Source of the DNA: a virus
Reading direction: 5' to 3' (one strand)
IMG/VR virus record: IMGVR_UViG_3300030451_002769
Coordinates: 1-20,012 of that record
DNA length: 20,012 nucleotides
In this document: positions 2,799 through 19,118 of the stretch, piece after piece
How positions within the stretch are numbered: the stretch's first letter is position 1
Layout of the letters: the number at the start of each line of letters is the position of its first letter
Notes under the pieces: generated by a model
The model's database searches: none
What the model saw: only the letters and a program-made list of their open reading frames with translations
What the model was told of the DNA's origin: nothing
Position numbers and translations under genes: made by a program

Positions 2799-2970
2799 TT
2801 AATAACTCCTGTGGTAACTTAGAAAACCCTTGAGTAGTACGACGATGCCATAACTCTTGTACACCATCTTCTTCAAGTTCAGTTAATTTATCTTGAATCT
2901 TTTTTAGTTCTTCTTCATTGTAAAGCCAAGGTTGTTCCAACGCTTTCCTCAATGCTGCTTTTGGTTTCAT
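2791..2970 (-). CDS. hypothetical protein (59 aa)
   Basis: Unrecognised small, charged, helical protein: MKPKAALRKALEQPWLYNEE leads into a predicted coiled helix (ELKKIQDKLTELEED) and a tail WHRRTTQGFSKLPQELLNE. ATG at 2970 is chosen; a TTG three codons upstream is the only other option. The start lies 56 nt inside the end of purN, and no Shine-Dalgarno is obvious. It sits in a run of small cyanophage-type genes. Confidence 0.6.
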   Translation of the reverse strand: MKPKAALRKALEQPWLYNEEELKKIQDKLTELEEDGVQELWHRRTTQGFSKLPQELLNE

Positions 2971-3490
2971 AATTTGCAAACTGATTAATAACTAATGGTA
3001 AAAGTCTGTATTCTGCTCTCTGTATACGATGAGTCAAAGTCTCTACCGTATCCTCTGGAGATATATGAACTCTACTTTGTTCTATTATATCACCTCCGTC
3101 AAGCTCTTCATTGACATAGTGTACTGTACATCCAGTAACTCTATCACCTGATTCTAATGCTTGTTCTACTGCGTGCATTCCTTTATACTTTGGAAGTAAT
3201 GAAGGATGAACATTTATAATAGGTGCAGGGAAAGAGTAAGGATTCTTAATAATTCTCATATAGCCAGCAAGAACTATAAGATCAACTCTCCATACTTTAA
3301 ATAATTCTATCATTTTATCTTCATCATTGTGAGGAAGATAACAATGTGGGATGCCAAATTTCTCTGCTCTTTTAGCAGCTCCACATTTCTTTTTGTTGTG
3401 AATCATTATCACAACTTCGTGAGACCATACAGAACGTAGTATGTTCTCAAAGTTAGTGCCCTTTCCAGAACACATAACACCTATTCTCAT
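2915..3490 (-). CDS. purN: phosphoribosylglycinamide formyltransferase PurN
   Basis: A 191-aa GAR transformylase that moves a formyl group from 10-formyl-THF to GAR in purine synthesis. It shows the expected landmarks: MRIGVMCSGKGTNFENIL at the N-terminus (phosphate-binding loop), INVHPSLLPKYKG with N93 and H95 in the positions of the E. coli catalytic N106 and H108, and VHYVNEELDGGDIIEQ with D131 matching D144. The length fits the bacterial enzyme (about 190-210 aa). AAGGA precedes the ATG at a slightly long spacing. Phage purine genes are thought to boost nucleotide supply for replication of AT-rich genomes; that role here is inference. It lies in the cargo block between gp44 and gp62. Confidence 0.93.
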   Translation of the reverse strand: MRIGVMCSGKGTNFENILRSVWSHEVVIMIHNKKKCGAAKRAEKFGIPHCYLPHNDEDKMIELFKVWRVDLIVLAGYMRIIKNPYSFPAPIINVHPSLLPKYKGMHAVEQALESGDRVTGCTVHYVNEELDGGDIIEQSRVHISPEDTVETLTHRIQRAEYRLLPLVINQFANYETKSSIEESVGTTLALQ

Positions 3491-3502: not shown

Positions 3503-4114
3503 TTAAACAGAATTTACGTTGAAGTGAGGAGCAAAATCTAAAGTAGATGTATCATAAGGTGGTCCGAAAAACCACGCTACTAATGATTTTCTGACTCCTG
3601 ATTTTACAGGACGTACTCTATGCCAATAATCTGACAAAAAGAATAATGCTTCTCCTTTTAAACACCTAAATGTTTTGTGTCTTTCTGGATGAGCATCAGG
3701 TCCATAAACTTCAAGATCTAATTCACCGCCTTCATATTCATCAGGATTAGAAAGAAAAAGACTCATGCTTATCTTTCTAGTGATGTTATTTTCAATTTCT
3801 GGAAATTGATCTACATGCCATTTAAAATAATCACCTTCGGTATATGTTGCATATTGTATTGCTTCACAACCTACAATGTTTAGATTCCATCTAGCAGCAC
3901 GATTAACTTCCATAACGATCTCACCAAACATTTTGATGACATCTTTATCTTGTACCCAAGTGTTCGTACTTTTACGAACATCTTCTTGATATTGACTTCC
4001 CTGTACTAGAGAAGCTTCAGCAGGTTCTAGTTCATCACTAGTCAATGCTTTAGTAATGGTATTCATAGCACCCTCATTAAGGGTTACTACTTTGAACATA
4101 CTACCGTAATTCAT
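3503..4114 (-). CDS. 2OG-Fe(II) oxygenase, PKHD/prolyl-4-hydroxylase type
   Basis: A 203-aa protein with a complete iron and 2-oxoglutarate site: H100-x-D102 in FKWHVDQF, distal H165 in YWHRVRPV and R175 in GVRKSLVAWFFG, with the GGELDLE strand at 129-135. These residues define the double-stranded beta-helix dioxygenases related to PKHD hydroxylases (PiuC-like) and prolyl 4-hydroxylases. Such genes are frequent in marine T4-like phages; substrates are unknown, with protein or nucleic acid hydroxylation as candidates. The start has TAGG about 8 nt upstream, and 35 nt of non-coding sequence with a TATAAT-like element precedes it. It is followed by purN after 12 nt. Confidence 0.9.
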   Translation of the reverse strand: MNYGSMFKVVTLNEGAMNTITKALTSDELEPAEASLVQGSQYQEDVRKSTNTWVQDKDVIKMFGEIVMEVNRAARWNLNIVGCEAIQYATYTEGDYFKWHVDQFPEIENNITRKISMSLFLSNPDEYEGGELDLEVYGPDAHPERHKTFRCLKGEALFFLSDYWHRVRPVKSGVRKSLVAWFFGPPYDTSTLDFAPHFNVNSV

Positions 4115-4798: not shown

Positions 4799-4938
4799 GT
4801 GAATACAGCATTAACACCAACTACTTTAGCATTGGGATTACGTGCAAGTGCAACTTCACGAGCTTCTGCATAATCACGTGCATGTACAGTTTCTGTAAAG
4901 AGTTTACCTGCAACATAGAGTTTTACTTCACATTTCAT
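4795..4938 (-). CDS. hypothetical small protein (47 aa), cyanophage-type
   Basis: ATG at 4938 to TGA at 4795. The product MKCEVKLYVAGKLFTETVHA is followed by RDYAEAREVALARNPNAKVVGVNAVFT: strand-strand-helix-strand, a compact small fold. It resembles a short protein I recall as widespread in T4-like cyanophages, of unknown function. It overlaps the end of the dam gene by 11 nt and the 107-aa gene by 4 nt. Confidence 0.72.
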   Translation of the reverse strand: MKCEVKLYVAGKLFTETVHARDYAEAREVALARNPNAKVVGVNAVFT

Positions 4939-5764
4939 AATTTAATAAGACTAACTCCTTTCTCTTTGCTTGTTCTTTATTATAGCATCCCGTAGACCTC
5001 ATGGTGTAAGTATGTGCAAATTCCCTAACCGTCCACTCGTTGAAACGATCCTTAACAATCTGATCAGAATTATATGAGATCAACATAGATGCTGTGTAAT
5101 GATCACACCAGTAAGCAAATTCATCATGATCAAATGTCTTATGCATTTCACCCTTCTTACCATAAAGATTATCCTTAATATCATAAGGAGGATCTAAGTA
5201 AACAAATGTATCTTTTTCATCAGATAACATTCTCTCGTATGAAAGATTTGTTATTGTCCAGTTTTGAATAAGCTCTGAGTATTCTGAGAGTCTTTCAATA
5301 CCTCTGAAGGAGAAATTGGATTCTGACGCTTGTGGACTGAATGATGAAGATTCTGTAAGACCACTAAAGGAACACTTATTAACGATATAAAAAGAGCAGG
5401 CACGAGCAAAGTTTGATTTTTCTTTGTCATTTATTTCTTCCTTACATGTATTGAATAATTCTCTAGCAGTTACTCTATCTGGATGTAAATTCTTTAAAGA
5501 CAAAATAGCATCTTCAAGTTCTTGTCCATTATGTTGTAACTCAGACCAGAAATTATATAGAGGTTCGTATAGATCATTAACCCAGATTGATATATCTGGA
5601 TATCTTTTTGTAACTTCTAATGCTACAGAACCACCACCCAAGAATGGTTCACGAAATTCTCTATAATTATTAAGACTAGGTATGTATTGAAACAGTTTTG
5701 ATACTGCTCTAGATTTACCACCAGGATATCTCAGTGGTGTTTTCAATGATTTAATAGTGCTCAT
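4928..5764 (-). CDS. dam: DNA adenine methyltransferase, Dam/D12 class (alpha type)
   Basis: A 278-aa N6-adenine methyltransferase of the Dam/DpnM group. The motifs run in alpha-class order: YPGGK at 13-17, REPFLGGGSVALE (AdoMet loop) at 38-50, VNDL at 62-65, NKCSFSGL at 129-136 and the catalytic DPPY at 191-194 inside VYLDPPYDI. The family usually methylates GATC or a close site, but the target here cannot be read from sequence. No restriction endonuclease is nearby, so protection of phage DNA or regulation is more likely than a restriction system. It joins gp44 by ATGA, placing it right after the clamp loader large subunit where gp62 would sit in T4. Confidence 0.92.
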   Translation of the reverse strand: MSTIKSLKTPLRYPGGKSRAVSKLFQYIPSLNNYREFREPFLGGGSVALEVTKRYPDISIWVNDLYEPLYNFWSELQHNGQELEDAILSLKNLHPDRVTARELFNTCKEEINDKEKSNFARACSFYIVNKCSFSGLTESSSFSPQASESNFSFRGIERLSEYSELIQNWTITNLSYERMLSDEKDTFVYLDPPYDIKDNLYGKKGEMHKTFDHDEFAYWCDHYTASMLISYNSDQIVKDRFNEWTVREFAHTYTMRSTGCYNKEQAKRKELVLLNYEM

Positions 5765-6705
5765 CTAAATTCACAACTCATCATAATTTCAGTTAAACAA
5801 GCTAAGAGATTAATCTCTTGATCAGGAACAATAGGAATACTATTCATATACTTTGCAATAATCAATACTGCTTCTGGTATAGAAGATGGTTTTAAAACAT
5901 GGTACAAACTATCGTAGATCTTACGCATGACCATAGTAGGATCACCATCCATATGTTGTACTACCCAATTCTTTACTGTAGTAAACTCTTTCTTCTTTAA
6001 GCTTACAAGAAGAGCATCTAAATTAATGTCTGCAACATCAACTAGGATAGCACTCTTAATAGATCCTGTAGCAGCATAACGTTGACACTCATTTATCAGT
6101 CTTCGCCAATCAGGATAGTAACGATTAATAAGTTTAGCAATAACTTTATCTTCATAGTCAACCTTTTCACTATCAAGAATATATTTCAAACGTTTGAAAA
6201 AAGTTCCTTGTAATGCAATCTTCTCACCATTCTTAATTCTAAAATCAACTACGGTGCACCGTGAATGTAATGGTTCAATAATCTTATTGATAAAATTACA
6301 AGTAAAAATAAATCTACAATTATTATGAAACTCCTCTACAGCAGTCCTCAAGGACAACTGAACATCGTTGGTTGTGTTATCTGCCTCATCTATAATAACG
6401 ACCTTGTGAGACGCTCCAGAGGTCAATGAGACGGTTGTAGCAAATTGTCTTACTCTATTCCTAACAGTATCAAGAAATCTACCTTCGTCTGATCCATTAA
6501 TAACAATATACGATGCACCAATTTGTTCACATAAAGCTTTTGCAACTGTTGTCTTACCAACACCAGCAGTTCCACTCAACAATAAATTAGGAAGTTCTCC
6601 TTGATCAACAAAACCCTGAAATACATTAAGAATGTTATCAGGAAGAATACAATCTTTAACTGCTTTGGGGCGATACTTCTCTACCCATAAAAATTCTTTA
6701 CTCAT
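5761..6705 (-). CDS. 44: clamp loader large subunit gp44
   Basis: A 314-aa AAA+ ATPase matching T4 gp44 (319 aa) in length and layout: WVEKYRPK near the N-terminus, Walker A GTAGVGKTT at 45-53, Walker B IIDEAD at 104-109, sensor 1 in FIFTCNF and the SRC arginine-finger motif at 148-150. Four copies with one gp62 load the gp45 clamp onto primer-template DNA. The ATG overlaps the stop of the upstream 2OG oxygenase (ATGA), and its stop overlaps dam (ATGA). Confidence 0.96.
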   Translation of the reverse strand: MSKEFLWVEKYRPKAVKDCILPDNILNVFQGFVDQGELPNLLLSGTAGVGKTTVAKALCEQIGASYIVINGSDEGRFLDTVRNRVRQFATTVSLTSGASHKVVIIDEADNTTNDVQLSLRTAVEEFHNNCRFIFTCNFINKIIEPLHSRCTVVDFRIKNGEKIALQGTFFKRLKYILDSEKVDYEDKVIAKLINRYYPDWRRLINECQRYAATGSIKSAILVDVADINLDALLVSLKKKEFTTVKNWVVQHMDGDPTMVMRKIYDSLYHVLKPSSIPEAVLIIAKYMNSIPIVPDQEINLLACLTEIMMSCEFR

Positions 6706-7292
6706 TGTGGTATAAACAGATTAAAAGAAAAAGTGATTCTTATATCATCACTAAGATTTTCATCAACACAGTGCTCAACGTATGGTGGAAATAAAATAAC
6801 ATCACCATCATTAAGCTTAGGTTTAGCAATAGAAGATTTATAATCAGATAATTCAGATCCATTTATTGGAAATGAATGTACTGTGTTATGGTAATCTGGT
6901 CTATAAAAAGTTGTTGGTGTAAAACCTTTATGATAATAAATGCCACACCAATAAGGAACACCACCACATCCCATTAAATGAGAATGACGTTCCTGATTCT
7001 GGTTCTTATGATAAACATTATACCAGAACTCACGAAATTCAAACCTATCTGGTAATTGTTTTTCATAGAATAATTCCATCAATTGAAATTTCAAATCTCT
7101 TTTGAGATTCTCTCTTTGAAATACACTAACCATAGGATCATCATTCCTAATGTTGGGGAATGATGAATTGACATCACATCGCCACCCTTCTGGATGGCGA
7201 TTTAACTTTCCTACATCTTCAAATCCATATTCACTATGCTTATTAAACTTAAACGTGTAAACAGGAACATAAAAAAGTTTATGAAGCTTCAC
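6702..7292 (-). CDS. putative 2OG-Fe(II) oxygenase, HxH variant (GTG start)
   Basis: A 196-aa protein with the C-terminal outline of the 2OG-Fe(II) oxygenases of the type described as TIGR02466: ERHSHLMGCGG with H103 and H105, a WCGIYYHKG strand, DGDVILFPPYVEHCV with H174, and DDIRITFSFNLF with R185. The iron site would be H-x-H...H or use only part of that set, unlike the H-x-D of the oxygenase at 3503-4114. Substrate unknown. GTG at 7292 is chosen because it overlaps the gp45 stop as GTGA. It sits between the sliding clamp and its loader, so it is co-expressed with the replisome. Confidence 0.75.
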   Translation of the reverse strand: MKLHKLFYVPVYTFKFNKHSEYGFEDVGKLNRHPEGWRCDVNSSFPNIRNDDPMVSVFQRENLKRDLKFQLMELFYEKQLPDRFEFREFWYNVYHKNQNQERHSHLMGCGGVPYWCGIYYHKGFTPTTFYRPDYHNTVHSFPINGSELSDYKSSIAKPKLNDGDVILFPPYVEHCVDENLSDDIRITFSFNLFIPQ

Positions 7293-7963
7293 TTAGGTTC
7301 AAGGGCAATGTAATATGAAAGATCAACATCTTGATTAGTCCATTCAGAAATAAGATGTTGAGATACTCTAATAGAATAATTACCAGGTAGAACACGAATG
7401 TTCTCTATCTTAAGATCTAAAGTATATGCTCCATTAGATGAACCAGTAATAGATTGTTCGTATGTATTACTAGTATCATTTTCTTTATCACGTAAGATAA
7501 GTTTAATAATATCAGATCCTTCTTCTGAATGAAAAGTAAGATCTGGAAGACTATAAACAGCAGATGCTTTCTGCAATGAAATAAGATCTTCTTCTGTTAG
7601 AACAAATTCTATATCAGAACCTGGAAACTTTACATTTTTTTCAGGAGCTGACTTGAGCGTAATTTCAGGATCAGAGAAATAATACTTAGCAGACTGACGA
7701 CCCCCACGAATGTTGACAAAATCGCCACTAGTGAATTCCAATTGAGGATCGTTAAACAAAGAGATCCCAGAAAGAAACTGACTGAGATCATATATTGCGA
7801 AGTCCACAGGAAATATCTCCTCGCCAGTAAACTTAGCGAGGATGTTCTCTGCATTACTAATTGTTCTAACCGTTGATCCCTTTCTAAAGACGATTGAGGA
7901 ATTGATGGTACTGAAGTTTTTAAGGACATTTAATGTCTTACTGGATAATGTTACTTTACTCAT
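7289..7963 (-). CDS. 45: sliding clamp gp45
   Basis: A 224-aa protein (T4 gp45 is 228 aa). It matches T4 gp45 in LKNFSTINSSIVFRKG near the N-terminus, FPVDFAIYDLSQFLSGISLFND, and the C-terminal NIRVLPGNYSIRV plus YYIALEPK. gp45 forms a trimeric ring that tethers gp43 to DNA, and in T4 it also activates late transcription through gp55 and gp33. No gp33 is visible here. ATG overlaps the stop of the DUF3310-like gene (ATGA). Confidence 0.95.
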   Translation of the reverse strand: MSKVTLSSKTLNVLKNFSTINSSIVFRKGSTVRTISNAENILAKFTGEEIFPVDFAIYDLSQFLSGISLFNDPQLEFTSGDFVNIRGGRQSAKYYFSDPEITLKSAPEKNVKFPGSDIEFVLTEEDLISLQKASAVYSLPDLTFHSEEGSDIIKLILRDKENDTSNTYEQSITGSSNGAYTLDLKIENIRVLPGNYSIRVSQHLISEWTNQDVDLSYYIALEPK

Positions 7964-8271: not shown

Positions 8272-8453
8272 TTTTCACTCCAGACATGATCTATGTCACC
8301 ATGATAGCATTGAAATTCATTTCCGTCAAGATCAACCACATTAATTTTGTGAGTTGCTTTCCATTCCTCACCTCCATCTCCTACGATACGGACACTCCTA
8401 CCGTCTTTGAGACGGAGGATGTGTCCAAGATATCCATCAAACGGTTTCTCCAT
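8268..8453 (-). CDS. hypothetical protein (61 aa)
   Basis: Unrecognised small protein: MEKPFDGYLGHILRLKDGRS, then VRIVGDGGEEWKATHKINVVDLDGNEFQCYHGDIDHVW. Alternating short strands suggest an all-beta SH3/OB-like fold, but there are no catalytic residues. GGAG lies about 7 nt before the ATG. It overlaps the end of the CobS-like gene by 17 nt and the DUF3310-like gene by 4 nt. Confidence 0.62.
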   Translation of the reverse strand: MEKPFDGYLGHILRLKDGRSVRIVGDGGEEWKATHKINVVDLDGNEFQCYHGDIDHVWSEN

Positions 8454-9531
8454 TTTCTTCTCCGTTTACGTTTACATCTGCATCTATCTTATCATATAAT
8501 TCCAAGAATGATTGCTTGGTCTCATCATCAAATCTATTTACGCAGACTTTGATCGCTTTCATACGATTATTCCAGATTGCAAATGCACGAATGATGTGAA
8601 CAAGTCTACGAGTAGAGATCACTTCATCAATACCACCATCATTAAATGTCTTACGAATGATGTCTGCCCAGTTAGCAAGATTCTCACAGAATTTCTTATC
8701 AAGAACTCCAAGATTAGCTGCTGCCTTCTCAAGGATTTTCTGCTCAGTTTTAACATGAGGATACTCTTGCTCAAATGTCAAAGCAAATCTCTCAAGGAAT
8801 GCTTCGTTAAGAACATTAGTACCGATGAACCTACCATCATCAGAACCTTTACCTTTGGTGTTAGCAGTTGCAATGATGTTGAATCCTGGTTTACGTTCTA
8901 CATAACGACCAGTCTTCTTAACGAATAAACCTTTACCTTCAAGAATAGATTGTAAGCAAAGAATCTTATTAGATGCTAGATCAACTTCATCAAGAAGTAG
9001 AACTGCACCTCTCTCTAGTGCTTCAACTACAGGTCCGTTATGCCATACAGTTTGTCCATTGACAAGTCTGAATCCACCGATTAGATCGTCTTCATCAGTT
9101 TCAATAGTGATGTTAACTCTAATCAATTCTCTCTTTAGAGTAGCACATGCTTGCTCTACAGAGAATGTCTTACCATTACCAGACATACCAGTAATGAATG
9201 TAGGATAAAAGATCTTTGACTGAATAATTTTCTTTACATCAGCAAAGTTTCCAAAAGGAATATAATTTGGATCCTTATCAGGAACTAGATTTTTTTCAAC
9301 AGCAGGTAGTGCTGCAGGTGCCTGATAAGTCTTTTCTAGTTTTTCTGCGATGGTCAATTTCCATGTTCCACGCTTAACATAAAAATCACGTAAGCGTTTA
9401 GTAGCAGTTGCATATTTTACACCAAAATGATTTGCTGCAATTTTAACATGATTCGCATTAATGTTTCTACCGAATTCATTGTTTAGGTATTCTGCTAATT
9501 GTGCAGATGTCAAGTCGGACTTAGCTGGCAT
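8437..9531 (-). CDS. cobS: AAA+ ATPase, CobS/MoxR-like
   Basis: A 364-aa AAA+ protein, annotated CobS in cyanophages. It has an N-terminal helical region (about residues 8-58, SAQLAEYLNNEFGRN and RLRDFYVKRG) that could bind DNA or a partner, then Walker A GMSGNGKT at 115-122, Walker B LLLDEVD at 177-183, sensor 1 NIIATANT at 217-224 and a C-terminal lid with STRRLVHIIRAF. CobS works with CobT and CobN in aerobic cobalt insertion into the corrin ring, but this sequence belongs equally to the MoxR branch. The partner gene just upstream is a VWA protein with an HExxH site, so a MoxR/VWA remodelling pair is at least as likely as B12 synthesis; no CobN is in the window. The ATG follows a 31-nt A-rich leader after a TATACT-like element. 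Confidence 0.85.
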   Translation of the reverse strand: MPAKSDLTSAQLAEYLNNEFGRNINANHVKIAANHFGVKYATATKRLRDFYVKRGTWKLTIAEKLEKTYQAPAALPAVEKNLVPDKDPNYIPFGNFADVKKIIQSKIFYPTFITGMSGNGKTFSVEQACATLKRELIRVNITIETDEDDLIGGFRLVNGQTVWHNGPVVEALERGAVLLLDEVDLASNKILCLQSILEGKGLFVKKTGRYVERKPGFNIIATANTKGKGSDDGRFIGTNVLNEAFLERFALTFEQEYPHVKTEQKILEKAAANLGVLDKKFCENLANWADIIRKTFNDGGIDEVISTRRLVHIIRAFAIWNNRMKAIKVCVNRFDDETKQSFLELYDKIDADVNVNGEENGETV

Positions 9532-9579
9532 TTGTTTAATTGTTTGTTATGTATTAAGTATAATGGATTGAGATGAGAA

Positions 9580-9605
9580 TGGGGAAGATAATGGACACTT
9601 CCCCA
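9580..9605 (-). other. hairpin between CobT-like and CobS-like genes
   Basis: A perfect 8-bp stem (TGGGGAAG with CTTCCCCA) around a 10-nt loop, in the 80-nt gap between the two genes. No run of T follows on the minus strand, so it is not a standard intrinsic terminator; pausing, transcript processing or mRNA-end protection are options. A TATACT element lies downstream of it at 9557-9562. Confidence 0.5.
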
Positions 9606-9611
9606 ACTGGT

Positions 9612-11816
9612 CTAGCATACGTAATCAACGAATGAATTGAGAATCTTTTTACTAGTTGCTTTACTCCTAATCATCTTTTTAAAAGCACGAGAGATATCTG
9701 CTTTTTTTGCACCTTCATCTACATCTAAGGTAGCTTCTTCATCTATATCTTTATTTGATAAAGCATACAAAGCTGTGTATGATATAGGGTTAGGAATAAT
9801 AGCAGACTTTTCTTTTCGCCATTGCTTTTGTACATCATCGTAAAATACATTACGAGCAAATCTATGTACAAAATTAGATAACTGATTACCAGAAAGAATT
9901 CTAAATCCTAATATATTAACTTCAGGGAAACGATCTTGTAACTGCTGAAGGAATACATTAGTCTCTTCCGCATATGCGAAGTTACCATATACACGTCCTG
10001 TTTTACGATCACGAAGAACTACTTTGTAATCACAACGACGTGGACGTATCTTTTCATCTTCATCATTATAATGAACTAGTGCTCCATAAGAAATAGGATT
10101 TGCTTCACCATCAGTTAAGATACATACATTCACTTTCTGCAAATCATTGTCTCTCTTGAAGTTAGGAATAATATAGTTCAATAGAACGACACCTTCATTC
10201 AATGGTGTACCAGATAAACCTAAGCCTGGAGTTGATTGATACTTAACATAACTACTACGACGACTATGATAATAGTTTGCTTCACGATAAACGTTCTTAC
10301 ACATCCTCTCGTACTCACGTGCATTACTACGTGATGAAATAAAATTAACAAGATGGAAATATCTAGGATCTATGAAAATTTTATTTTTTTGAATCCCTTC
10401 ACACTCACGATAATCATAATCATAATAACGATGGTACTGGTCAGCAGTTTTCTCATCATTATCAATAGCACGTTGAGCAATTACCCACTCATTAGTGAAA
10501 GCATATACTTCAAATGGGATCTGAACTTTCTTACAGAAAGAAGTCAATTTAATTAACTGTTTAACTGTAGGAAGAATTTCATATGCCATAGAACCTGACC
10601 AATCTAAAAGAAAGATCATGCCATGGTTTTTACCATCAGGAACTACTGTGATCTTTTTAAAGAGATCTTCGTTGTATTTGTAAGTATGGAGTTTAGAAGT
10701 ATCAAGAACTCCTGTCTTAGCAACACCAGCACGAGCGTAAGCATCAGCAGATTTTCTACATTCAAATTCTTTAACAAGGTAATTTACCTCCTTCTGAGAT
10801 GACTGACGGAACTCACGATAATCGTTATCAACTTCTTCGTAATACCCTTCTTCAACTGAAGATGTATTAGTTTGATCAATCCAGTTGTGGACTACTTCCC
10901 AATCAGCTATATGTCTATCTAGTGGAGCTGTATCTGCAATTTCAACATATGTTGCATCGTTGTAAGATTCACTAGATAGTCTCTCAGACTTACGTTCAAA
11001 CTCTTCTTGTGTACGAACAATATCACCATCATTCTCACCACCATAATCATCACTCTCTTCATACATAGCATCTTCTAATTGATCTAGAAGATCTTGATCA
11101 GGTGTAGAGGTTGATCTAGTAACCTGTTTAAAATCTTCGCTGTCACCATCTTCAGAATCATTATCTTCTTTTCCTTCTGATTCAGATTCACCTTGTGGAA
11201 ATTCTGGTGGTGTGAAGTCTTCATTTTCTTCATCACTATTATCAAAGAGAGGATGTGATTCTTCTTCTTTCTTTTTCTGATAAAGATTGTAAACATCTTT
11301 TGCAATTTGAACAACTTCTTCAAATGTTTCTACATTTTCTGTACGTTCAACAAATACTTTCTCATCCTGTTCAAAAGGAATAAGTGCATCAGCACCACAT
11401 TTAAAATGAAGATTGATACGATCAATCAAATTAAATGTAGATACATCTTCATCAGCAATACCAAAGAAATCATTATTATTAAGTTCTCTATAACCACCAG
11501 AAAAACTCTTTTTAAGACCAGGATACTTACGCTTCATCAACTTCTCAATACGAGCATCTTCAATTACATTGACGTAATCTTTAGGGCATTCTGTATCAAG
11601 ATTTTGATTTGGTGTGAACAATGCATGTCCAACCTCATGTCCAACCAACAAATCATATACAACGCTGCTTGCTTTATCCCATAGAGGAAGAATAAGCACA
11701 CGATTGTCAACATCAAAAGATGCAGTTGGAACCTTCTTACTCTCTACAACTAGATTTTCTGTTGCGAGAAGTTTAGCAAGGTTGCCTTTAATTTCTTGTT
11801 GGTTGGATGAGTACAT
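9612..11816 (-). CDS. large VWA protein with HExxH metalloprotease-like domain (CobT-like)
   Basis: A 734-aa protein. Residues 60-64 are HEVGH within VGHEVGHALF, and NVIEDARIE at 83-91 supplies the glutamate that acts as a third zinc ligand in this type of gluzincin-like domain. Residues about 180-270 form a long acidic low-complexity linker (D/E/S rich). From 399 a von Willebrand A domain starts with MIFLLDWSGSM, a D405-x-S-x-S409 MIDAS metal site, and later CILTDGEANP. This layout is that of the CobT-like VWA proteins and is called 'peptidase' or CobT in cyanophages. Whether the protease site is active is not known; the metal ligands are all present. It precedes the CobS/MoxR-like ATPase, its probable partner. 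The start at 11816 follows a 41-nt gap after gp46. Confidence 0.85.
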   Translation of the reverse strand: MYSSNQQEIKGNLAKLLATENLVVESKKVPTASFDVDNRVLILPLWDKASSVVYDLLVGHEVGHALFTPNQNLDTECPKDYVNVIEDARIEKLMKRKYPGLKKSFSGGYRELNNNDFFGIADEDVSTFNLIDRINLHFKCGADALIPFEQDEKVFVERTENVETFEEVVQIAKDVYNLYQKKKEEESHPLFDNSDEENEDFTPPEFPQGESESEGKEDNDSEDGDSEDFKQVTRSTSTPDQDLLDQLEDAMYEESDDYGGENDGDIVRTQEEFERKSERLSSESYNDATYVEIADTAPLDRHIADWEVVHNWIDQTNTSSVEEGYYEEVDNDYREFRQSSQKEVNYLVKEFECRKSADAYARAGVAKTGVLDTSKLHTYKYNEDLFKKITVVPDGKNHGMIFLLDWSGSMAYEILPTVKQLIKLTSFCKKVQIPFEVYAFTNEWVIAQRAIDNDEKTADQYHRYYDYDYRECEGIQKNKIFIDPRYFHLVNFISSRSNAREYERMCKNVYREANYYHSRRSSYVKYQSTPGLGLSGTPLNEGVVLLNYIIPNFKRDNDLQKVNVCILTDGEANPISYGALVHYNDEDEKIRPRRCDYKVVLRDRKTGRVYGNFAYAEETNVFLQQLQDRFPEVNILGFRILSGNQLSNFVHRFARNVFYDDVQKQWRKEKSAIIPNPISYTALYALSNKDIDEEATLDVDEGAKKADISRAFKKMIRSKATSKKILNSFVDYVC

Positions 11817-11838: not shown

Positions 11839-11865
11839 AGTATAACGCATAATATGATTAGCCAA
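11839..11865 (-). promoter_or_regulatory. possible promoter before the CobT-like gene
   Basis: On the minus strand TTGGCT (11865-11860) and TATACT (11844-11839) lie 15 nt apart, in the gap between gp46 and the CobT-like gene. TATACT is part of the dyad TATACTAAGTATA. The spacing is short and the match to consensus moderate. Confidence 0.35.
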
Positions 11866-13603
11866 CCAGTCCATGTGTCACTTCGTTAACTGTCTCATGG
11901 ACGACAGAATAGTTCTTTTCTTTTTCAACAGTAATAGTTCTGTCAAATTTATCGTCCAAGTGCTGCTTATGGGAGATTACGAATACTTTAGTGCTATCAT
12001 CAAAATTACGTAAGATCCAACCCAGATCAGAAGTACCAGACTGATCAAGCGATCCGTCAAAGATTTCATCTAGAATAAGTAAGTTAGTGTCCACGCTATT
12101 CTTAAGCTTAGCAATAGAACGCCAAGTGAGCAGAAGAGCGATATCAATACGAGCCTTTTCTCCTTCTGAGAAACTGTCATAGGAAAAAATATCTCTATAC
12201 CTACTCTTAATTATTTCTTCAAAGTTCTCATTTAGGGTAAAATTGACATAAAACTCCATCCTTTGTAAGAATTCGTTAATCATCTTATTCATTTTAGGAA
12301 GATATGTCTTAATGATTCTAGTCTTGATACCGTTATCTTTAAGCAATTGATTAGCAGTAGTAAGTACAGCACGATCCTCTTTAAGATCTGCTGATAACTT
12401 AGATAAGGTTTTCTTTCCTTTAACTAATTCTTCTAGCTTTACAAACTCTGATTTCCTATCAACATTGTCAGATTGTAATTCAGTGATCTCTTCATTAATA
12501 GAATCAATCTGTTTACGAATTGTCATCACCTGATAATTAGATTGATTGACAGTAGTGTTTAGATTGTTTACTTCTGTAGATAACTCAGTAAATTTTTCAA
12601 ACCTAATTTCTTCTTCTTTAATAGCATTAACTAGTTCATCTTCTCCTACAGTCATCTCATCTAACTTAACTTTACCCTCTGTCAACTTCTCTTGACGAAA
12701 GTCGTGTGACAGTTCTTGCGTACAAGTGGGACATACGTGGTTATCTTCAAAGAAACTATGTTCTTTTCTACAGTTCTGCAACTTACCTTGTAGTTTTATG
12801 AGATAAGTGTTTAACTTTTTCAATTTTGCACTGGACTTTTGATAATCCACCATTTCTTTATTAAGATTTCCGATTTCCTTTGTTAATAATTCTATATCTT
12901 TATTAGCTTTTGCTTCTGTTTCCTGATATTCTTTTATTTTTTCTTTCTTTCTATCAATTTCTTCTTTAGTTCTCTTCTCAAGAGTAAGCATATGTTGTTT
13001 CTGTAGATCAATCTTATCTTTCAATAGATCTAATTCATAATCAACATTCTTTACTTCATCATTATTCTCTCTAACTTTATCTCTAAGTAATAGATTCATT
13101 GTAGAGAATACTTGAATATCTAAGATGTCTTCAATGATCTCTCTACGTTGTGTGGTAGGAAGACGCATGAAAGGAACAAAGGTACTAGAACCTAGTACAA
13201 CAATTTGTGTAAAAGATTTATAATTTAATTTTAATACGTTCTTTTCTAAATTCTTTTGCTGTTCTGCTACTGATGATTCTTGATCCCATAATTTTCCATT
13301 ACAATATATCTCAAACTTGTTAGGTTTGATTCCACGAATAACTTTATAGCTTGACTTACCAATACTAAATTCTATCTCAACAATAGTATCTTTTTCATTG
13401 ATACTATTAACCAACATTCCTTTATTGATTTTTCTAAATGGTTTCCCAAACAAGGAAAAGGTCAACGCATCTAAGATGGTTGACTTACCAGCACCATTAC
13501 TACCAACAATTAAATTTGTTCTGTAATTGGTTAAATTAATTTCACTAAAAGTGTTGCCTGTTGAGAGAAAATTCTTCCAACGAACTTTTTCAAAAATTAT
13601 CAT
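11858..13603 (-). CDS. 46: recombination nuclease subunit gp46 (Rad50/SbcC-like)
   Basis: A 581-aa SMC-type ATPase (T4 gp46 is 560 aa). Landmarks: Walker A VGSNGAGKST at 33-42, Q-loop near residue 133, coiled coils at about 180-290 and 310-420, zinc-hook CPTC at 291-294, ABC signature SFSEGEKARIDIAL at 477-490, and Walker B NLLILDEIFDG at 507-517. With gp47 it resects DNA ends for recombination-dependent replication in T4-like phages. The start overlaps the DUF3110-like stop as ATGA. Confidence 0.96.
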   Translation of the reverse strand: MIIFEKVRWKNFLSTGNTFSEINLTNYRTNLIVGSNGAGKSTILDALTFSLFGKPFRKINKGMLVNSINEKDTIVEIEFSIGKSSYKVIRGIKPNKFEIYCNGKLWDQESSVAEQQKNLEKNVLKLNYKSFTQIVVLGSSTFVPFMRLPTTQRREIIEDILDIQVFSTMNLLLRDKVRENNDEVKNVDYELDLLKDKIDLQKQHMLTLEKRTKEEIDRKKEKIKEYQETEAKANKDIELLTKEIGNLNKEMVDYQKSSAKLKKLNTYLIKLQGKLQNCRKEHSFFEDNHVCPTCTQELSHDFRQEKLTEGKVKLDEMTVGEDELVNAIKEEEIRFEKFTELSTEVNNLNTTVNQSNYQVMTIRKQIDSINEEITELQSDNVDRKSEFVKLEELVKGKKTLSKLSADLKEDRAVLTTANQLLKDNGIKTRIIKTYLPKMNKMINEFLQRMEFYVNFTLNENFEEIIKSRYRDIFSYDSFSEGEKARIDIALLLTWRSIAKLKNSVDTNLLILDEIFDGSLDQSGTSDLGWILRNFDDSTKVFVISHKQHLDDKFDRTITVEKEKNYSVVHETVNEVTHGLVG

Positions 13604-13866
13604 TCTATAGGATCATCAGGTGGTATTAAAAAATCGTCAGGGGTGATAATAGAAAAACGTTGTCCACGCTCTTGACATGCCCCTATTATAACATGGTCTT
13701 CCATTTCTACAACCTCCATGGGAGGATATCCATCCTCTTGAGGCATCATCATAAGATATCTGTTTGCGTCATCTAACTGAAGGAAAATTGGTATGACACG
13801 GTTCTCAGTTTCATCCCACACGGAATACACTCCATCAGGACGATTCTCTAGGGTTAGGACAAACAT
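13600..13866 (-). CDS. DUF3110-like protein (88 aa)
   Basis: The protein has MFVLTLENRPDGVYSVWDET at the N-terminus, LDDANRYLMMMPQEDGYPPM in the middle (the D-D-A-x-R-Y motif), VVEMEDHVIIGACQERGQRF and ITPDDFLIPPDD at the end. This matches my memory of DUF3110, a family of cyanobacterial proteins of unknown function also carried by cyanophages, although I could not run a search. It lies between gp47 and gp46, joined by TGATG and ATGA overlaps, so it is co-translated with both nuclease subunits. ATG at 13866 is preferred over a GTG one codon upstream. Confidence 0.75.
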   Translation of the reverse strand: MFVLTLENRPDGVYSVWDETENRVIPIFLQLDDANRYLMMMPQEDGYPPMEVVEMEDHVIIGACQERGQRFSIITPDDFLIPPDDPIE

Positions 13867-14906
13867 CACACAACTTCACAGCTTTCCATATATAGTGATC
13901 TCATTAAAGTCTTCAATGATGTTTTATCTACGGAGATCTCTACTTCATCAATGTATTCATTGAGTAGTGTCATAGTATCTTTAGTCTCTAAATCTGAGTC
14001 ATCAACATCATCTGTATTGATTAATGTTTCAATAACTTTAACATCATGTACTCCTATATTGTAAAGACGATCAACCAATGTTTCAAACATTTGGTAGTCA
14101 CGTTTCTCTTCAACGATGAGTTTAACAAATTGCTCTCTATAATCAGACACATCGTATTTGTTGTAGTCCGATTCAACGTCGTTGTAGTAAAGCTTCTGAA
14201 ATATTTCAAAGGGGTTCTCCACAAATCTGAGTCTATCAGTCTCAGTATCATAGATATGAAACCCACGAGTATCCTTGTAGTCATTCCAAAACATCTGATA
14301 AGGGTTTCCAAGGTACTGAACATTTCCTCTCTTTGATCTATGATGAAAATGTCCTGACCATACACGCTTAAACTTTTTAAAATCACTTACCTTGAATCCA
14401 CCATCAAAATGCATTCCAGGTGTAACTTCAAAACCATCACATTCTAAGTGTCCACACATCACATTGGCATCAGACTCTTCCATTAATTCCAAAGATTGTT
14501 TCTTATTTCCAGAATTAATCCATGGCATCATCAGGAATTTTTGTCCACCTACCTTTATATCTTTTGGTTCTGTATAGATGGTTATATTTCTATACTCTTC
14601 TAAAAGAAGTTCAGGTGAATTAATCTTATTAGTATTCTTATAGTACGTTGTATGATTCCCAAGAATCATGTGTACATCAAACCCTTTAAGTCTGTCAAAA
14701 TAATTTGCCTTAATGCGATTAAGAGTATTAAAGTCCACATACTTTCTGTTATCAAAAGTATCACCCAAATCAAATATTGTAGTGATACCTTCTCGTTTAA
14801 GAGTAGGGAAAAATATTTCATCATAAAATTTTTGCCAATAATTCCAGAACGCAAGGGAACCCTTACGTCCATCAAGATGTTGATCAGTTATAACTGCTAT
14901 CTTCAT
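13866..14906 (-). CDS. 47: recombination nuclease subunit gp47 (Mre11/SbcD-like)
   Basis: A 346-aa calcineurin-type phosphoesterase (T4 gp47 is 339 aa). Metal ligands are in order: D8-x-H10 in TDQHLDG, D49 in LGDTFDNRK, N84-H85 in LGNHTTY, H153 in CGHLECDG and H186/H188 in SGHFHHR. With gp46 it forms the exonuclease/recombination complex. The start overlaps the 46-aa gene upstream by 23 nt, so its translation is probably coupled. Confidence 0.96.
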   Translation of the reverse strand: MKIAVITDQHLDGRKGSLAFWNYWQKFYDEIFFPTLKREGITTIFDLGDTFDNRKYVDFNTLNRIKANYFDRLKGFDVHMILGNHTTYYKNTNKINSPELLLEEYRNITIYTEPKDIKVGGQKFLMMPWINSGNKKQSLELMEESDANVMCGHLECDGFEVTPGMHFDGGFKVSDFKKFKRVWSGHFHHRSKRGNVQYLGNPYQMFWNDYKDTRGFHIYDTETDRLRFVENPFEIFQKLYYNDVESDYNKYDVSDYREQFVKLIVEEKRDYQMFETLVDRLYNIGVHDVKVIETLINTDDVDDSDLETKDTMTLLNEYIDEVEISVDKTSLKTLMRSLYMESCEVV

Positions 14907-17683: not shown

Positions 17684-18156
17684 TATTGTCCATTAATAAA
17701 TTTCTCCCACTCAATGGCACTTTTGACTTGGAATCCTCTATTTGAAATCTGTTTCATTACCTGATCTAACCAGTGTAACATTTGGTCTAGGTATTTGATC
17801 TTAGCTTCAAGGTTAATGATTTCTTCATCTGCCTCAAGATAAGTTCTCATTTTTTCAGAAGTTTTAATACTACCTCCAAATGGTTTAAGAGCATAAGTCT
17901 TAGCATCTGCTTCACCAGAATAATACTCACGCTTTTCCTTAACCAATTTACGAATTTCAAACTCAAGAGAAGTCTTGATCTGTGATGTGTCAGTGTAATG
18001 GTTTAAGTATTTATTATGTTGAAAAGGGATGTCTAAAGCAAGTTGTCCTAGATCAGCACTGTATTGCTTATTCTTAAATTGAAAGTCAACTGCAGAATCT
18101 TCTGCCCAGTCTTCTCTCATCTTTTCAAATTTATTACGAATGACTTCAAAGTTCAT
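17683..18156 (-). CDS. uvsY: recombination mediator UvsY
   Basis: A 157-aa protein with the expected features of cyanophage UvsY: a short polar N-terminus, a lysine-rich coiled helix (LEFEIRKLVKEKREYY), ADEEIINLEAKIKYLDQML and the C-terminal SNRGFQVKSAIEWEKFINGQ, which I recognise from UvsY. T4 UvsY (137 aa) forms a hexamer that helps load UvsX on gp32-coated ssDNA. Neither UvsX nor gp32 lies in the window. It overlaps the methyltransferase by ATGA. Confidence 0.9.
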   Translation of the reverse strand: MNFEVIRNKFEKMREDWAEDSAVDFQFKNKQYSADLGQLALDIPFQHNKYLNHYTDTSQIKTSLEFEIRKLVKEKREYYSGEADAKTYALKPFGGSIKTSEKMRTYLEADEEIINLEAKIKYLDQMLHWLDQVMKQISNRGFQVKSAIEWEKFINGQ

Positions 18157-19118
18157 ACAAATTCTAACCTTGCAAATGATTTTTCACTTAATCGTTTCTG
18201 TATTAGTTCTGCATAACGTTCGTGTAATTCACAACCAATATAATGTCTCCCATGAGTCTTCGCTGTTACAGCAGTAGTTCCTGATCCCATAAAAGGATCT
18301 AAAACAATATCTCCTTTTTCACTACCTGCAAGAATACATGGTTCAATAAGTTCCTCAGGGAATACAGCAAAGTGAGCTCCCTTGTATGGTTTAGTATTTA
18401 CTTTCCACACTGATCTCTTATTTCTCTTATCGTAAATCATCTTACGTGGTCTAGTTAAACCACTAAATTGATTGTCAACATCCTTAGTATTATCCATATT
18501 AATAGGAGTGTTACCACCCCATCTTTCACCAACAGCTTTCTCTTTAATTGCTTCATGGTCATAATGATAATGCTTACTCTTACTCAGTAAGAAAATATAT
18601 TCATGTGCTTTAGTACATCTATCCTTAACTGACTCAGGCATAGGATTAGGTTTATGCCATATAATATCTTGTCTCAGATACCATCCATCTGCTCTCAATG
18701 CAAATGCTAACATCCATGGTATACCAATTAAATCTTTACTCTTATATCCTTCTAACTTATTACCCCTAACAGGTGTATTCATAGGTAGATCTTGTCTAGT
18801 CTTAGCAACTGTCTGTTTAGGATAGTTACCATCACTTCTATAATTGTAGTAAGAATCTCCTATGTTTACCCACAGTGTTCCATCATCTGTTAATACATCA
18901 CGCACTGATCTGAATACTTCAACTAACTGTTGAATGTATTCTTCTGGAGATTGCTCCATACCAATTTGTGAATCTTCTCCACCATAATCTCTCAACCCAT
19001 AATAGGGAGGAGAGGTAACACACATACGTGGTCTTTTAGCAATACCAGTTGTTATGTGTGCATGTAATGTTTTTAGTGTTTCACGGCAGTCGCCAATTAA
19101 TATGGTGTCTGTACTCAT
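18153..19118 (-). CDS. beta-class DNA methyltransferase (N4-cytosine or N6-adenine)
   Basis: A 321-aa AdoMet-dependent DNA methyltransferase with motifs in beta-class order: the catalytic TSPPYYGLRDYG at 35-46 comes first, and the AdoMet loop VLDPFMGSGTTA at 272-283 is near the C-terminus, followed by GCELHERYAELIQKR. SPPY is more common in N4-cytosine enzymes than in N6-adenine ones (DPPY/NPPY), so m4C is favoured but not proven. The recognition region between motifs (about 90-260) has no homologue I recognise. It is inserted between gp3 and uvsY, joined by ATGA at both ends. No restriction enzyme is near. It is a second, unrelated modification enzyme besides dam. Confidence 0.9.
   Translation of the reverse strand: MSTDTILIGDCRETLKTLHAHITTGIAKRPRMCVTSPPYYGLRDYGGEDSQIGMEQSPEEYIQQLVEVFRSVRDVLTDDGTLWVNIGDSYYNYRSDGNYPKQTVAKTRQDLPMNTPVRGNKLEGYKSKDLIGIPWMLAFALRADGWYLRQDIIWHKPNPMPESVKDRCTKAHEYIFLLSKSKHYHYDHEAIKEKAVGERWGGNTPINMDNTKDVDNQFSGLTRPRKMIYDKRNKRSVWKVNTKPYKGAHFAVFPEELIEPCILAGSEKGDIVLDPFMGSGTTAVTAKTHGRHYIGCELHERYAELIQKRLSEKSFARLEFV

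Follow-up and report, generated by a model that had tools for sequence, protein, structure and literature searches.

An AAA+ ATPase and a gluzincin-like VWA protein, probably distinct relatives of CobST, lie beside the replication genes of a T4-like marine phage

The virus record IMGVR_UViG_3300030451_002769 (positions 1 to 20,012; this whole 20,012-base stretch is the window referred to below) looks like part of a marine T4-like phage, namely its replication module, and we describe here two adjacent genes within it, one encoding a 364-aa AAA+ ATPase and the other a 734-aa protein with a von Willebrand factor A (VWA) domain. Their open reading frames (ORFs) lie on the minus strand at 8437-9531 and 9612-11816, respectively, with 80 bp between them. 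The ATPase is the cyanophage "CobS" of PHROG 249 (phrog_249, 460.6 bits; AAA_5, E 8e-20), and the larger protein is the cyanophage "peptidase" of PHROG 459 (phrog_459, 872 bits), a family that was named CobT in PMC8651126. Nearly all large marine cyanobacterial viruses carry this pair, which usually bears a B12 label; "cobS", which belongs to the core genes of T4-like cyanophages (PMC3037559) and has served as an ecological marker (PMC9983427), is counted in the literature as an auxiliary metabolic gene for B12.

The 734-aa protein is divided into an N-terminal gluzincin-like domain (residues 5-188, positions 11253-11804, recognized from an AlphaFold2 model and its PDB matches), an acidic linker predicted to be disordered (residues 189-262, 11031-11252; 38% Asp/Glu and a predicted local distance difference test score, pLDDT, <50) and a C-terminal VWA domain (9615-10631), all on the minus strand, as are the other features of the pair given below. 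The N-terminal domain contains the motif HEVGH at residues 60-64 (H60, E61, H64; 11625-11639) on a predicted active-site helix, followed by NVIEDARIE at residues 83-91 (11544-11570) on a predicted glutamate helix, in which E86 may supply the third zinc ligand. The VWA domain has the metal ion-dependent adhesion site (MIDAS) motif DWSGS (D405-W-S407-G-S409; 10590-10604) and the further MIDAS residues T537 (10206-10208) and D569 (10110-10112). Residues H60, E61, H64, N83, E86, D87 and R89 and every MIDAS residue are without variation in 83 of 83 full-length relatives, and, judged by this conservation, the motifs are not chance matches. HExxH is also present in 14 of 14 intact phage copies binned in genomes and in all 76 intact proteins of a second phage group, the SSU5-type phages, and in each of the 80 loci that show both genes the ATPase gene is on the same strand as its partner and downstream of it. 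An initial annotation, made from the sequence of the window alone, had pointed to this adjacency, to the HEVGH, third-ligand glutamate and MIDAS VWA features, and to the protease-like character of the partner's zinc ligands; these observations hold across the relatives, and loss of the ligands was not seen in any phage relative. Searches with the 734-aa protein gave no family from Pfam, NCBIfam or PADLOC beyond chance-level matches, and phmmer found no match among PDB sequences.

AlphaFold2 models the full 734-aa protein with a pLDDT of 76.8 and the N-terminal domain alone with a mean pLDDT of 85.3. In the full-length model helices are predicted at residues 51-67, which carry the HExxH, and at 79-97, which carry the glutamate. 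The layout described for gluzincins, ArdC included, places an invariant Glu on the helix that comes after the HExxH helix (PMC7213743), and on this model the phage protein would conform to it. The top PDB matches of the N-terminal domain are all zinc-protease-type folds, namely the antirestriction protein ArdC (Z 7.9 over 121 residues), selecase and the minigluzincins (Z 5.8-6.9), and BlaR1, Wss1 and IrrE. The domain resembles gluzincins such as ArdC, the minigluzincins, IrrE/PprI and Wss1/Spartan in its modelled fold and in the order of HExxH and glutamate helix, but no matched entry is described as an adaptor of VWA or AAA+ type. The best solved matches of the VWA domain are the MIDAS domain of midasin (MDN1; Z 16.3, 226 residues, 3.7 Å) and the VWA domain of NorD (Z 15.8), both of which partner MoxR-like AAA+ rings. 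CobT chains are absent among the structural matches listed, which is not evidence of a difference.

In the ATPase the Walker A motif GMSGNGKT (9166-9189; G115, G118, G120 and K121), the Walker B motif LLLDE (8986-9000; D181 and E182), the sensor 1 residue N224 (8860-8862), the arginine finger R248 (8788-8790) and the sensor 2 arginines R308-R309 (8605-8610) are invariant in 56 relatives, and with these residues in place it should be an active motor. Its closest PDB sequences are the AAA+ domains of midasin, with CobS second, and CobS is its top NCBIfam match, at a score far below the model's cut-off (TIGR01650, 77.4 bits against 558.55). With the model of classical MoxR, PF07726 (AAA_3), it also scores below cut-off (23.2 bits against 27), and it barely exceeds that of CbbQ_C (21.2 bits against 20.6), a weak match. 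Midasin is a single giant eukaryotic polypeptide, in which we know of no protease domain. In the broad sense the two phage genes form a MoxR-like AAA+/VWA pair, an AAA_5 ATPase with intact catalytic residues adjoining a MIDAS VWA protein, so the "classic MoxR/VWA arrangement" of the initial annotation describes the architecture well but not the ATPase itself. The N-terminal extension of the ATPase (residues 1-83, 9283-9531) possibly contains a helix-turn-helix (HTH_72, E 0.066, below cut-off); this is only suggestive and we do not claim that identity. The corresponding extension of an SSU5-type phage ATPase (L016:7198-7480) has a similarly weak look of a DNA-binding module (ROS_MUCR, E 0.09, below cut-off). 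More distant matches are the ATPases of Twort-like (Kayvirus), Acinetobacter YMC13/03/R2096 and Pumpernickel phages, alongside which no VWA protein was seen (Staphylococcus Kayvirus, L005:4737-5855; Acinetobacter phage, L009:4479-5672). When genomes were scanned for a cellular orthologue of the ATPase, no more than 17 loci came up, and where a full partner is present the locus has the look of a phage contig that was binned with a genome. Cyanophage-type contigs binned into metagenome-assembled genomes from many phyla were noted (L097-L113), as was a 188-kb contig with the pair in the isolate genome of Nonlabens xiamenensis (L099).

The gene order on the minus strand, in the direction of transcription, is uvsW, gp47 (13866-14906), a small ORF (13600-13869), gp46 (11858-13603), the 734-aa protein, the ATPase, two small ORFs, the gp45 sliding clamp (7289-7963), a 2-oxoglutarate (2OG)-Fe(II) oxygenase (6702-7292) and the gp44 clamp loader (5761-6705); gp46 and gp47 were recognized by matches to phrog_77 and phrog_100. 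Promoter and terminator scans around the pair gave nothing informative. When only viral loci long enough to tell are counted, gp46/47 lie upstream in 46 of 46 Kyanoviridae-type loci and gp45/44 lie downstream in 39 of 39. The SSU5-type phages, an unrelated group, have DnaE within 2.7 kb downstream of their pair in all 68 loci, and the pairs of a Zobellviridae-type phage and an ICP2-like Vibrio phage are close to polymerase or primase genes. Unrelated phage lineages therefore agree in placing the pair near replication genes.

Two ATPase trees were built with MoxR proper and CbbQ/NorQ as outgroups. The CobS clade (support 100/99) leaves out the window ATPase, which clusters with those of other Kyanoviridae and of Ochrobactrum phage OC (99/96). 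Forcing this clade to join CobS was marginally rejected (approximately unbiased, AU, test, p=0.0488), and joins with MoxR (p=0.29) or CbbQ/NorQ (p=0.493) were not rejected, though the tree puts the ATPase outside both. The ATPase is therefore best described as a lineage of its own and not as "MoxR rather than CobS". The initial annotation had preferred MoxR to CobS and had proposed a phylogeny to check this; the tree favors a separation from CobS, at a marginal level, but does not place the ATPase within MoxR proper. The choice is moreover a false one, as CobST is itself an AAA+/VWA pair and one branch of the same family. Neither a single clade of all phage ATPases (AU p=0.10) nor a CobS nested within the phages (AU p=0.46) was rejected, and we therefore do not claim that CobST derives from phage.

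The VWA protein is a distant relative of CobT, and its line of homology is clearer than that of the ATPase. CobT models (TIGR01651; PF06213, PF11775) gave no match to the 734-aa protein at E 0.001, and none was found in Pfam; SSU5-type phage proteins do match Pfam CobT_C. When profiles of the Kyanoviridae protein and of true CobT were compared directly, no link emerged (2% for the whole protein and 14% for the N-terminal domain). The SSU5-type phage CobT aligns with true CobT over its full length (E 4e-42), and the N-terminal domain of the window family aligns with that of the SSU5-type proteins (E 3e-14) with HExxH on HExxH and glutamate helix on glutamate helix. The SSU5-type domain in turn matches the N-terminal domain of true CobT (E 3e-8), where HExxH is replaced. 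At the level of sequence profiles, then, homology of the window protein to true CobT runs only by way of the SSU5-type proteins. Of 31 cellular CobT proteins, of which 26 are canonical and 5 are divergent, not one has HExxH at that site. CobS/CobT of the CobNST chelatase and the phage pair thus share an AAA+ ATPase adjoining a VWA protein with an N-terminal domain, an acidic linker and a C-terminal MIDAS VWA domain, and differ in that CobT lacks HExxH and partners CobN while the phage proteins keep the zinc site and fail the CobS/CobT models.

Other phage "CobT/CobS" pairs, those of SSU5-type, Rhizobium, ICP2-like, Zobellviridae-type and Gordonia phages, likewise combine HExxH and a MIDAS VWA domain with an adjacent AAA+ ATPase, and the SSU5 and Rhizobium pairs (next to dnaE) and the ICP2-like and Zobellviridae-type pairs adjoin replication genes; the neighbours of the Gordonia pair are unnamed. 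They differ from the Kyanoviridae pair in matching Pfam CobT_C and in having separate ATPase lineages. Two cellular loci were also noted. One is an AAA+/VWA pair without HExxH whose scores fall between CobST and the phage pairs (L259:3080-5985; 92 bits for CobT and 106 bits for phage CobT), and the other is a CobT-like gene with HEAAH and MIDAS in a Pseudomonadota genome (L260:3031-4686), with a CobS-like ORF cut by the edge of the locus, possibly an integrated phage-type pair. DUF2201 proteins (PF13203 putative metallopeptidase plus a VWA-like domain) are comparable in having HExxH, a VWA domain and an ATPase next door, but are shorter, and a sequence match to the phage family was not found. 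Such a locus was seen once, with the ATPase directly upstream of a cellular zincin/VWA protein (L129:1009-3571), and represents a further zinc-site VWA pair.

It has been proposed (PMC8651126) that proteins labelled "peptidase" are in truth CobT, and that in archaeal and bacterial tailed viruses CobST is a cobaltochelatase ATPase motor that hijacks the host CobN and raises B12 output. The distant homology to CobT through the SSU5-type proteins and the standing of CobS among the matches of the ATPase favor this view, as does the finding that cyanobacteria, which have CobN, are without cobS and cobT (PMC9227772). Another report denies that the cobS of cyanophages is truly homologous (PMC5083919), and the failed CobS/CobT models, the marginal rejection of a clade with CobS, the zinc site missing from 31 of 31 true or divergent CobT proteins and the constant position beside replication genes all speak against the proposal. 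So do the hosts. The same pair is found in pelagiphages, and SAR11, their host, is a B12 auxotroph (PMC9296465). Relatives of the pair occur in SSU5-type phage-plasmids of E. coli, which is not among the control genomes with CobN. The initial annotation had noted that the window has no CobN; we found none in this 20-kb virus fragment, nor in any of ten complete related phages or phage-plasmids that bear such a pair. All seven Kyanoviridae and SSU5-type records tested carry a class I ribonucleotide reductase (RNR). Enzymes of this class need no B12.

Even in bacteria the step from CobST to B12 is weakened, since 20 of 79 Pseudomonadota genomes with true CobT above cut-off, some of which may be incomplete, show no CobN (51 have CobN above cut-off and 8 only a weaker match); a Caulobacter vibrioides control likewise has CobT without CobN. 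Cellular CobST may thus have a use besides cobaltochelatase. There is also a probable collision of names between the aerobic CobS/CobT (the chelatase motor) and the E. coli-type CobS/CobT (cobalamin synthase and dimethylbenzimidazole phosphoribosyltransferase), visible in phage annotations (H191, for example) that read "dimethylbenzimidazole phosphoribosyltransferase" or "final step in cobalamin biosynthesis". The doubt that the initial annotation cast on the B12 link is well founded: the two proteins do not fall firmly within CobS/CobT, and no CobN partner was found with them in the window or in the ten complete relatives. We consider the B12 reading of the pair poorly backed, and the label should not be relied on.

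The explanation we favor is that the pair, related to CobST but distinct from it, is a remodelling machine of the AAA+/MIDAS kind to which a gluzincin domain is attached, and that it acts in phage replication or recombination and not in B12 synthesis. We give this reading as a whole a probability of roughly 0.58; it is weakest in the proposed proteolysis and in what the client would be. The ATPase would form a hexameric ring of the MoxR/CobS type that drives the VWA protein, which would serve as the substrate adaptor. Like NorD and the MIDAS of midasin, the MIDAS would grip a metal-bridged acidic ligand on the client. The minigluzincin-type domain at the N terminus would hold zinc, and it would probably cleave the protein being remodelled, or else grip it. 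The client would be a phage or host protein of DNA replication or recombination. In related systems, MoxR-like AAA+ rings with VWA partners are established remodellers of their targets and can insert metals (PMC13036017). The phage proteins would then form a family of AAA+/zinc-VWA pairs, and CobST, the motor of the cellular cobaltochelatase, would be related to this family but lack its zinc site. The initial annotation had called a chaperone or protease "an equally good reading"; we find an AAA+/VWA remodeller or protease to be a better one than a B12 chelatase, with proteolysis its predicted part. A more specific and rather speculative version, which we doubt, would make the pair the founder of a class of AAA+/VWA metalloproteases associated with DNA in phages. 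By analogy with Cdc48 and Wss1/Spartan, these would remove or cleave proteins that are trapped on the DNA of phage or host where replication and recombination take place, and CobST would be derived, its protease site lost.

Several points weigh against the favored explanation. The activity, the complex and the target of the pair are all predicted, and we found no expression study of the pair in the literature. The structural scores of the N-terminal domain are moderate (Z at most 7.9; Foldseek E at least 0.04), and the placement of the ATPase is weakly supported (sister relations 81/39). Synteny is inherited within a lineage, so the conserved neighborhoods represent few independent events and not hundreds. 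The CobN of cyanobacterial hosts leaves room for hijacking of a host enzyme, for cyanophages alone. Finally, the metal at HExxH might be one to be inserted elsewhere and not a catalytic one, by analogy with the related NorQD, which inserts iron.

This last point is the basis of the first alternative, a NorQD-like metal-cofactor insertase in which the metal held at HExxH would be inserted into a remodelled metalloenzyme, with class I RNR or the neighboring 2OG-Fe(II) oxygenases as clients. The closeness of the VWA domain to NorD and midasin and the metal insertion by MoxR-like/VWA pairs noted above fit it, as do the class I RNR carried by all seven Kyanoviridae and SSU5-type records tested and the nearby oxygenase gene. 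The NorQ/NorD and CbbQ/CbbO systems also share the MoxR-type ring with a VWA partner, and CbbQ_C matches the ATPase weakly, but the window ATPase is placed outside their clade. We know of no NorD-type partner that carries a gluzincin domain. Class I RNR is lacking, however, from the Gordonia, ICP2-like and Zobellviridae-type phages that also have the pair, and the invariant catalytic Glu of HExxH serves hydrolysis and not metal binding; we think an insertase unlikely. A chaperone whose zincin domain is dead or purely structural, serving stability or binding while only AAA+/MIDAS remodelling matters, would agree with the status of proteolysis as a prediction and with CobT, whose domain can lack its ligands yet stay in the complex. 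A structural site would not require the catalytic-type E61, which with both His is invariant in 83 of 83 relatives, nor HExxH in 76 of 76 SSU5-type proteins, and this makes such a chaperone distinctly unlikely. A viral cobaltochelatase motor, on the evidence of models, hosts and neighborhoods given above, is about as unlikely.

Among the ORFs of the window, those at 2915-3490, 3503-4114, 6702-7292, 4928-5764 and 18153-19118 include what looks by eye like a PurN-like formyltransferase, the 2OG-Fe(II) oxygenase or oxygenases, a DNA methyltransferase and, again by eye, a Dam-like methylase. Formyltransferase, oxygenase and methylase genes of these kinds are usual accessory genes in such phages.

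Such genes had been annotated before and are not new in themselves; what is new is the zinc-site variant of the AAA+/VWA pair and its fixed place beside replication genes. If the pair is indeed a remodelling or proteolytic motor, a metabolic claim often made for marine viruses would be wrong, and the long-open function of the gene would become testable in SSU5-type E. coli phages as well as in Synechococcus. The comparison also suggests that the zinc site was lost in the N-terminal domain of CobT, and that CobST may be one specialized member of a wider AAA+/VWA family.

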